A stretch of DNA of 51,577 nt, from the NCBI GenBank assembly GCA_012729225.1, contig JAAYDO010000135.1, positions 1-51,577 of the forward strand, written 5' to 3'. The DNA is from Bacteroidales bacterium (GTDB lineage: Bacteria > Bacteroidota > Bacteroidia > Bacteroidales > Bacteroidaceae). Under the pieces are notes generated by a model. It saw nothing but the letters and a program-made list of their open reading frames with translations, was not told the origin of the DNA and made no database searches. Both the position numbers and the translations under genes were made by a program. This document shows, in pieces, positions 9,827 to 38,880 of this stretch (position 1 is its first letter; every line of letters starts with the position of its first letter).

Positions 9827-9917
9827 CATATTCTTGGTGCACGGGTTCAGCATCAGACAACGTGAGTTTGATGGAATCCCCATGCTCTGTTCCTGCTATG
9901 AGAGGCGAAGTGAAAAG

Positions 9918-10088
9918 TAAATGTGTGTGTGAATGCAATAGTGTGATTTCCACTCAATTAGCCGTTTTATGTGACCAGAGCATTCTTCGTGCTCCAACGC
10001 ACCATTGTTCAAGTGCCAATGCACAATGGTTCAAGTGCCCATGAATAATTGTTCGAAGACCAACGAACCATGCGTGCGTTTTTGTCCT
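9918..10088 (+). repeat. Dispersed 22-bp-unit element, copy A
   Basis: Three 22-bp units (9994-10015, 10016-10037, 10038-10059; pattern CCAAYGMACMATKSTTCAAG) are followed by the conserved cap CGAACCATGCGTGCGTTTTT starting in the unit at 10060. The left arm (from about 9918, GTGTGTGTGAATG) and the cap recur in copies at 25431-25600 and, inverted, 38549-38745. It occupies most of the 9683-10372 gap; 10089-10298 shows nothing else I recognise. Confidence 0.8.
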
Positions 10089-10298
10089 TATAAATATCTT
10101 CTAAATCCATCGAACTTGCGTGAAAATAAAACAATGTTTCATGCTTGGTCAAAATGCTTTGTTTCCGATTCGTCTCTACGAATAGAGTTTGGCGGCTTCG
10201 CTGATGATAAATGATGGACGATAGATTGGTTTTGGATAAAAGCATCTGCATTTCTTTGCCATGTTTGTTTTGCAAAAGAGCAGTTTTTAGATGTTTTT

Positions 10299-25315: not shown

Positions 25316-25430
25316 GTGCGCACACATACACCTCGATTATCAATGAATTCTTATGGATTTGTGATTCTGGCGCAAGTCCGATAAGTATCTCTTTCCCTCC
25401 CTGCCTTTTCTGTTGGGAAGGTCAGATAAA

Positions 25431-25600
25431 AGTATATGTGTGCGAGTGTGAAATAGCAGTTATCCCCTGTCGTGTGACACATCTAAAGATTGAAGCATTG
25501 TTCGTGCTCCAATGAACAATGCTTCAATGGTCAATGAACAATGCTTCAAGTGCCAACGAACAATGCTTCAATGCCCCATGAACCATGCGTGCGTTTTTCA
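25431..25600 (+). repeat. Dispersed 22-bp-unit element, copy B
   Basis: Three 22-bp units (25509-25530, 25531-25552, 25553-25574), each with the core AATGAACAATGCTTCAA or AACGAACAATGCTTCAA, are followed by the cap ATGAACCATGCGTGCGTTTTT minus one base (25577-25597). The left arm begins near 25431 (TATGTGTGCGAGTGTGAAAT). The rest of the 25316-25914 gap has no gene I can support, only a weak protein-like frame on the minus strand. Confidence 0.8.
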
Positions 25601-25914
25601 CTCAAAAGCATGGTGTTATGTGGTATCCACAAATCATTGTTTTTTGAATGAGATATGTGGATTCTTGTGGCTGAGGGTAATGTTGTTCACATTCCCGTAA
25701 GAGTCGTCCAACGGCAGAACCTTCCAGCATCTCTTTGCCCGTCTTCAGCCAAAGTCAAAAACCCATTGTATTGCGCCATGAATTTTGATAAAAAACGAAA
25801 GAGGGAAGTATGATTGATGTGCCAACCATCGTGATCAACTGTTTCATCTTCTGAATTCAACGAATTCATGTTGTTAATCATCATGTTTAGATTCCTGAAC
25901 AATCATACTTGTGC

Positions 25915-38263: not shown

Positions 38264-38548
38264 GTGTATGTTTAATGTGAGTTCTACTAATTTGGAAGAT
38301 GATGCAGTTGGTTTGGATTGTTGGCACATCTTTTCAACCAGACTCTTTCCTTTCTTTTTTTTGTCATAATTCAAGGATAAATCCATCGACATTTGTATGC
38401 GGTGGAAGAAGGGCAAAGCGATTCTCGCAGATGGTGTCGCAGAGCAACTCTTCCAGGCAAGTGAACGATGTTTTACCAACTTTCCAAGATGTTTATATCT
38501 TCTTTATCTATCGTGATTTATGGATAGATGAAGATTCAAAGCCTATGA

Positions 38549-38745
38549 GGACAAAACTCACGCATGGTTCATGGACTATCGCACCATTGTTCATTAGCAC
38601 TTGAAGCATTGTTCGTTGGCCATTGAAACAATGTTCGTTGGTCATTGAACAATTGTTCGTTGGCGCATGCAAAACGCTTCAATCATGTGTTTTGTCAAAT
38701 GGCGGGGGAAACCAACCATTTTATCCTCACACACGCATGCTTTTA
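38549..38745 (-). repeat. Dispersed 22-bp-unit element, copy C (inverted)
   Basis: On the minus strand four units with the core CCAACGAACAATGCTTCAAG (38664 to about 38575, one of 23 bp) lead to the cap CCATGAACCATGCGTGAG and TTTTGTCCT. A left arm GCATGCGTGTGTGAGG lies near 38740. One unit contains the perfect palindrome GAACAATTGTTC. The rest of the 38108-38880 gap shows nothing further. Confidence 0.8.
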
Positions 38746-38880
38746 TTTACCCTCTCCAATTATCATAGAGGTAGGGTGCTGTGATTCCATCGAACACACG
38801 CTATGTTTATATGCAGTTCTTAGTGATGAAGAACCTTTTCCGTGTTTTCAGTTCTTGGTTCTTTCACTATTCAAGCAATG

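Follow-up and report, generated by a model that had tools for sequence, protein, structure and literature searches.

An IS982-type MITE family carrying a preserved array of phased GAAC dyads in a Bacteroidales genome

What are the short repeat arrays that occupy three intergenic sites in this 51,577-nucleotide Bacteroidales sequence (hereafter the window, meaning the whole stretch analysed), and what, if anything, are they kept for? Reading the sites directly and measuring them again, we found one architecture common to all three, in which an inverted unit stands ahead of three or four direct units, in a register of exactly 22 bp, and a cap, GAACCATGCGTGMGTTTT, closes the run. The dyad GAACAATTGTTC is indeed perfect in the third site (copy C), as an earlier note on this DNA had claimed. 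Within the window alone the 12-mer of the cap is weakly significant, with nine matches at up to two mismatches against a shuffled mean of 3.9, and exact matches at the three caps only.

The whole assembly (2,889,628 bases in 213 contigs, 88.8% complete) was decisive, since the cap matched 97 times at up to two mismatches and the reversed pattern 0 times. A further 38 places matched the leader of the element (E up to 1e-3, counted from the match lists) in the absence of a cap match, which together with the 97 gives about 135 places, although some copies split between contig ends may have been counted twice. The genome thus holds roughly 130 copies. The earlier note had predicted hundreds; the many further copies are real, at this lower number, and its picture of a dispersed, mostly intergenic, high-copy element is supported. 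It had also considered that no further copies might exist, which the 97 matches contradict, and that the three sites might be ordinary homologous gene remnants, whereas they proved to be elements bounded by terminal inverted repeats (TIRs).

Outward alignment of the 97 collected copies, 88-94 of which had enough flank and were used, delimited a leader and a tail, about 120 and about 290 bp long, respectively. The 'left arm' described previously is a piece of this leader. Sequence-only models of leader, tail and array were built from 34, 38 and 20 of the 97 copies (the 20 chosen by eye), a selection by cap that leaves a residual bias. These matched the genome at least 144, 116 and 192 times, respectively, counts that are not one per copy and for which 150 of the 889 (leader), 1254 (tail) and 1373 (array) first-look candidates were scored. 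Under stricter filters, none of the 44 other genomes in the genus gave a leader match. Across 60 relatives the cap, at up to two mismatches, matched in seven, once or twice each, and by eye none of the eight fetched relative loci with a cap match contained the array.

The outer ends of the copies match AACGTGAGTTCGATGAA and its complement, and these are the TIRs. At least 12 of 14 TIR bases were present at the left end of 12 and the right end of 8 of the 97 copies (shuffled motifs, 0 and about 0.1), and 26 of the genome's own copies had both TIRs within 5 mismatches in 17, compared to a mean of 0.3 and a largest value of 2 for 20 shuffled TIR motifs. A complete carrier is about 500 bp long, with lengths mostly of 477-549 bp. 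In most copies the ends are eroded and the TIR score is at background, and still the array is kept. TSDs of 5-6 bp were seen at 3 of the 15 loci listed with flanks (GTCTT at L053, ATTTT at L065 and AAACAT at window copy C) and none was visible at the other 12. The bounds drawn in the earlier note were too narrow, the TIR-bounded elements being larger (Table 1). The tail model gave no match in copy A, and no target duplication was seen at the ends of copy B. A 629-bp pairing for copy A was spurious, and this copy closes in its own TIR-like sequence at 10122. A minus-strand coding remnant 3' of copies B and C was a first impression that we dropped, since those tails aligned as the family tail.

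Table 1. Positions in the window of the three elements and their parts.
Feature	Positions	Strand	Detail
Copy A element, internally shortened	9859..10122	+	264 bp; left TIR 9859-9875, AACGTGAGTTTGATGGA, 15/17 to consensus; right TIR-like end 10105-10122, ATCCATCGAACTTGCGTG, 13/17 to consensus (end assignment is our reading)
Copy A inverted unit	9977..9998	+	AGAGCATTCTTCGTGCTCCAAC
Copy A three 22-bp units	9999..10064	+	
Copy A cap	10065..10082	+	GAACCATGCGTGCGTTTT
Copy B element	25369..25872	+	504 bp; ends 25369-25385 (eroded left TIR, 10/17) and 25856-25872 (14/17); leader model (R1) match 25371-25493, E 2.8e-18; tail model (R2) match 25599-25743, E 1.4e-21
Copy B inverted unit	25492..25513	+	GAAGCATTGTTCGTGCTCCAAT
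Copy B three direct 22-bp units	25514..25579	+	GAACAATGCTTC type
Copy B cap	25580..25597	+	
Copy C element	38274..38802	-	529 bp; left TIR 38786-38802 (14/17), right TIR 38274-38290 (13/17); sequence-model matches: leader 38679-38800, E 1.1e-24; tail 38407-38552, E 9.8e-24
Copy C TSD, upstream half	38803..38808	-	AAACAT
Copy C TSD, downstream half	38268..38273	-	AAACAT
Copy C inverted unit	38659..38680	-	
Copy C four 22-bp units	38571..38658	-	includes the perfect dyad
Copy C cap	38553..38570	-	GAACCATGCGTGAGTTTT

The TIR also led to a candidate parent. At up to three mismatches it matched 106 times in the genome (control, 6), and by our own count about 20 of these matches stand close to a contig end, at a distance of about 105-230 bp, so that the contig breaks off within the element; in some, the start of a transposase follows. 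Examples of contig-end elements, with TIR AACGTGAGTTCGACGWA, are L103, L104, L106, L110 and L113; a young, high-copy IS982-like element has probably fragmented the assembly. The contig-end transposase fragments, too short for family models, matched 0 families. One fragment (L113) is 95% identical (E 9e-6) to a stretch of a Prevotella nigrescens plasmid, and an IS on that plasmid carries the TIRs of the window family at both ends, with a direct repeat, ATACTTA, noted by eye. One piece of its transposase scores as IS982 (NF033520, E 2.4e-72), and the other piece matches no model; we regard this IS as an unannotated, frameshifted IS982 copy (L424, 1398-2490). Another fragment (L103) was weakly matched by annotated IS982 transposases (E 0.05 to 2). 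The transposase evidence within the genome thus consists of starts at contig ends, and the TIR-sharing parent on the plasmid is frameshifted. A comparison of element B with phage and plasmid relatives returned no match at E up to 1.

The elements are short, non-coding and TIR-bounded, some copies have TSDs, an IS982-type IS has the same TIRs, and near-identical TIRs have been published for other MITEs. The carrier is therefore a non-autonomous IS982-type MITE family, a described kind. The earlier note had recognised no described family; this does not hold for the carrier, although for the array-bearing family and its arrays we found no prior description in the literature within reach, most of it outside subscription journals. 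The TIRs of MITE239, MITE700 and ISPg3 of Porphyromonas gingivalis, among them ACGTGAGTTCGAT and TCGAACTCACGT, are nearly identical to those here (table 2 of PMC4596501). In the accessible parts of that paper MITE239/700-type elements seem to have no minisatellites, unlike the present family, and ISPg3 is filed under IS5, whereas the IS with that TIR type found here scores as IS982. MITECca01 of Cardinium is likewise an IS982-derived MITE, of about 240 bp, with 169 mostly intergenic copies; it is supported by intact parents, and the passages of PMC9769881 available to us mention no phased-dyad array. Similar in layout is the BrickBuilt MITE of P. gingivalis, which, to judge from the available sections of PMC4596501, is also from Bacteroidales, species-restricted and intergenic, and also combines a leader, short tandem repeats and a tail between TIRs; 19 copies with 1 to 22.8 units per copy are reported. 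However, its 23-nt unit, AGAYCATARTATCCTCTCRTRTG, has no GAAC dyad, its TIR, GAGACCTTYGCA, is different, and those sections mention no preserved cap. The published 23-nt consensus and TIRs, which define BrickBuilt, were not found in our elements. Two further short elements with the same TIR (L111, 206-927; L112, 378-836) contain no GAAC array by eye and are probably other MITE families of the same parent. In one locus (L064) the leader hairpin looks nearly perfect (AAATGGCATGGAAAGC / GCTTTCCATGCCATTT), whereas it looks imperfect in the other copies inspected.

We assessed preservation of the array by pairing leader and tail matches without use of the cap, in the fetched loci of the genome, which include every one of the 97 cap copies and 35 of the other 38 places. 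This yielded 73 leader-tail pairs and left 29 leader matches unpaired. At up to four mismatches, 59 of the pairs contain the cap described above and 13 a second type, GAACAATGGTGCGTTTT; the remaining pair (L085) has a good cap and a late tail match. The cap is thus conserved, as had been noted, but it is not the sole type. Stepping back from the cap at 22 bp with no filter, we obtained 236 units, all 236 of which differed at no more than two bases from one of four 12-mers or their complements: 176 matched exactly, 51 had a single mismatch and 9 had two. Exact matches in flanking 12-column windows amounted to 61 of 1074 in the leader, whose alignment includes the first bases of the array, and 21 of 1827 in the tail, a contrast that is somewhat generous because the flanks were compared with one reference word and the array with eight. 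The carrier has decayed and the array is kept. Conservation within the unit is uneven: positions 1, 3, 4, 6, 7, 10 and 12 are fixed at 95-100%, spacer positions 14 and 21 stand at 90-93%, positions 8, 9 and 11 of the dyad at 60-72%, so that its right half is degenerate in these arrays, and positions 15, 16, 17, 20 and 22 at 54-65%. Given this degenerate right half, the two conserved spacer positions and a dyad centre that is mostly AT, half-site and spacer do not separate cleanly. Among 102 leader hits, reading of the loci left unpaired showed that array or cap had been lost in six (one more runs off its contig), and the array is therefore dispensable at single sites. Conservation in the tail returns, past a poorly conserved stretch, in a block at about +50 to +80 relative to where the cap begins (TAAATCATTGTATATAAATAAGATAT); this block is perhaps a further protein site.

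The position of the copies relative to genes is equally uneven. For 63 of the 97 both neighbours were in range: 32 lie between convergent genes, 3 between divergent genes, and 28 between tandem genes, where the element points along the genes in 22 and against them in 6 (p 0.004). Overlap with mechanically called ORFs of at least 90 aa was found for 23 of the 97 cores. Avoidance of promoters accounts for part of this bias, and the tandem contexts suggest something beyond it. No replication-strand bias was seen, GC skew being positive in 31 of the 67 copies with enough flank.

The same array design exists on different carriers across Bacteroidales. Elsewhere in the genus the array model matched 6 of 44 genomes (E up to 1e-3); read at the match, five of these (G064, G019, G016, G010 and G032) have the design in other letters, with flanks that look unrelated, and the sixth (G001) does not have it. 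Two perfect GAAC-N4-GTTC dyads at N9 or N10 spacing gave, by our own sum, 191 hits in 28 of 399 genomes of the family, our own included, counting multi-dyad arrays more than once; 71 of these hits come from our genome and G198, and in nine of the 28 there is one hit each, which may be chance. The reversed pattern gave 17 hits in 11 of the 399 genomes and nineteen other spacings together 19 hits in 17; for each spacing this makes about 95 hits compared with 1. The exact pattern misses degenerate arrays, for example those of G019 and G064. A three-dyad scan of named genomes found at least 119 stretches, of which, among the matches listed, 100 are titled as Bacteroidota and 19 as other phyla. In the set of 104 Bacteroidota arrays among the matches listed, from which the 19 loci titled non-Bacteroidota were dropped and in which 100 of the at least 119 stretches were kept, 16 overlap an ORF and 23 lie at the edge of their locus; of the 65 arrays placed in these other species, 21 are flanked by convergent genes, compared with 10 of 100 other gaps of at least 150 bp (p 0.0005). 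Among the 312 dyads of the set, drawn from few genomes, 255 have a pyrimidine-purine centre, whereas the arrays of our own genome usually have AT (purine-pyrimidine).

The pattern is cleanest in Parabacteroides sp. PH5-46, where the array is an 82-bp element with TCCCACA/TGTGGGA ends and at least 10 copies. Ten distinct elements share 52 invariant columns of 82, although the GAAC and GTTC words are invariant by construction, the scan having demanded both, and the outer words were set by the search pattern. No pattern had required the inner ACA/TGT words; these persist in 117 of 120 cells amid adjoining and intervening bases that vary, and all 30 dyads have a pyrimidine-purine step at the centre. 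In the goat-cecum genome RGIG1657 the arrays sit in 144-166-bp elements with TTCTGCAATTTGGTTGAAA ends, at least eight of them among the 75 distinct arrays of all species, as far as the matches listed go. One such element (L399) apparently interrupts a palindrome midway (taattatggctc / gagccataatta); this palindrome may be a terminator that served as the target.

The best reading overall, in which we place middling confidence, is that of an IS982-type MITE whose kept, phased GAAC array would serve as a platform for a putative dimeric protein. A related transposase would have moved the ~500-bp MITE in the past, leaving the roughly 130 mostly decayed copies of today, each with a central array of a few 22-bp units that hold a GAAC-type dyad and are closed by a fixed cap. 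The putative protein would recognise GAAC half-sites and some neighbouring bases, and the 21/22-bp spacing would set neighbouring dimers on nearly one face of the helix, allowing cooperative binding; we infer both the candidate protein and its cooperativity from conservation and phasing. Of the two options in the earlier note, RNA hairpin ladders or a dimeric protein at two-turn spacing, position-specific conservation and phasing better support the latter, although 22 bp is slightly more than two helix turns, which counts against the phasing. The element lies mostly past the 3' ends of genes, where the bound array may separate neighbouring transcription units as a boundary or roadblock; such a role is our guess. 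In other Bacteroidales the same design occurs with other neighbouring bases and carriers, as if the sites had co-evolved with the protein. A broader version can be put forward tentatively: an undescribed, fast-evolving Bacteroidales system in which a putative dimeric protein with GAAC-core half-sites would bind tens to more than 100 helically phased arrays of 3-5 sites per genome, spread by whichever MITE is available and then retained by the host to form nucleoprotein boundaries at the 3' ends of its genes. The restriction of exact-pattern arrays to 28 of 399 genomes counts against the platform reading. MITEs usually pass for clutter in decay. In this genome it is the ends that have decayed, while the cargo persists in copy after copy, and the surprising part is that other species have cargo of this design on other carriers. 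Should a protein bind the array, a bacterium would have exapted a transposable element genome-wide. REP/BIME and REPIN sequences are likewise dispersed intergenic palindromes, but REPs are hairpins tied to RAYT transposases, and plasmid iterons have a similar spacing of about 17-22 bp but are sited at the plasmid origin.

A plain MITE carrying a minisatellite of no cellular function, its array only appearing preserved through gene conversion or unequal crossing-over (concerted evolution), is a somewhat unlikely account. In its favour, unit number changes by whole units; the inversion of some units (spacer ATTGGCACTT reads as the complement of AAGTGCCAAT) points to exchange; BrickBuilt is a known case of a MITE with a minisatellite (available parts of PMC4596501); and conservation of the leader drops with distance from the array. 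However, conversion of whole units should homogenise all positions, whereas the unit has near-fixed positions beside others that vary like the flanks, and this position-specific conservation argues against simple homogenisation. The tail block conserved beyond a poor stretch makes the fall-off non-monotonic, and the PH5-46 elements keep their inner words while the adjoining bases vary. Alternatively, the arrays could be internal binding sites for the mobilising transposase or a host factor, selected during transposition only, for which the 22-bp sites in Tn7 or Mu ends offer an analogy. We consider this improbable: phased 22-bp sites do lie within TIR-bounded elements and arrays do recur on carriers with different TIRs, yet the array of copy B begins about 120 bp inside the left end and its cap ends 275 bp inside the right one, and sites used in transposition alone should decay after insertion as fast as the flanks, whereas most copies have kept the array with TIRs at background score.

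That the element works as RNA, as a hairpin ladder, terminator or small RNA, is very unlikely. The arrays of five relatives do fold as one long hairpin (z -6.4 to -7.8), window copy B reaches z -3.4, and the tandem orientation bias given above speaks for this reading; good folding of single arrays is, however, expected of rows of palindromes, and window copies A and C fold weakly (z -1.7 and -0.4). RNAalifold predicted no pairs for the leader (34 copies) or the tail (38 copies) and five for the array (20 copies), none of them with changes on both sides, so that no consensus structure with covariation emerged, and apart from a tRNA nothing in Rfam matched the window. Where one side of a long-hairpin pair varies in the ten PH5-46 elements, the pair is formed in 85 of 160 cells, below the shuffled mean of 98.7, and pairs at the centre are at chance (63 of 100, expected 61). 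Since pairing falls below the shuffled level, the conserved feature is not the hairpin, and the failed alignment folding together with the PH5-46 pattern favours recognition as double-stranded DNA by a protein. The palindrome GAAC-N4-GTTC is itself the Gram-positive LexA (SOS) box, and the dyads could in principle be SOS boxes bound by LexA repressor, which we regard as scarcely credible. The commonest dyad in relatives, GAACATATGTTC, occurs in the parts seen of papers on Gram-positive SOS or phage regulation, and five of nine array-bearing genomes gave matches to the LexA DNA-binding model below the cut-off, one of which (in G143) is by eye an Lrp/AsnC-like ORF. No genome of the nine contained a cognate LexA by PF01726 above the cut-off, and our own gave no match even at E up to 0.1. 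Moreover, LexA boxes are promoter operators, whereas here phased arrays lie mostly at gene 3' ends, and Bacteroidetes SOS repressors bind GGA-N5-TCC or CTAA-N5-TTAG, according to the accessible part of PMC8565304. Canonical LexA is not supported.

For the preferred reading, a dimeric protein on a MITE-borne array, a search of the literature for nucleoid-protein motifs in Bacteroidota found none. Outside this phylum, long 21-bp minisatellites of GAAC-N4-GTTC-type units were observed in L293, L325 (Nostoc), L291, L345 and L361 (Planctomycetaceae), and those of Nostoc and Planctomycetaceae look independent.
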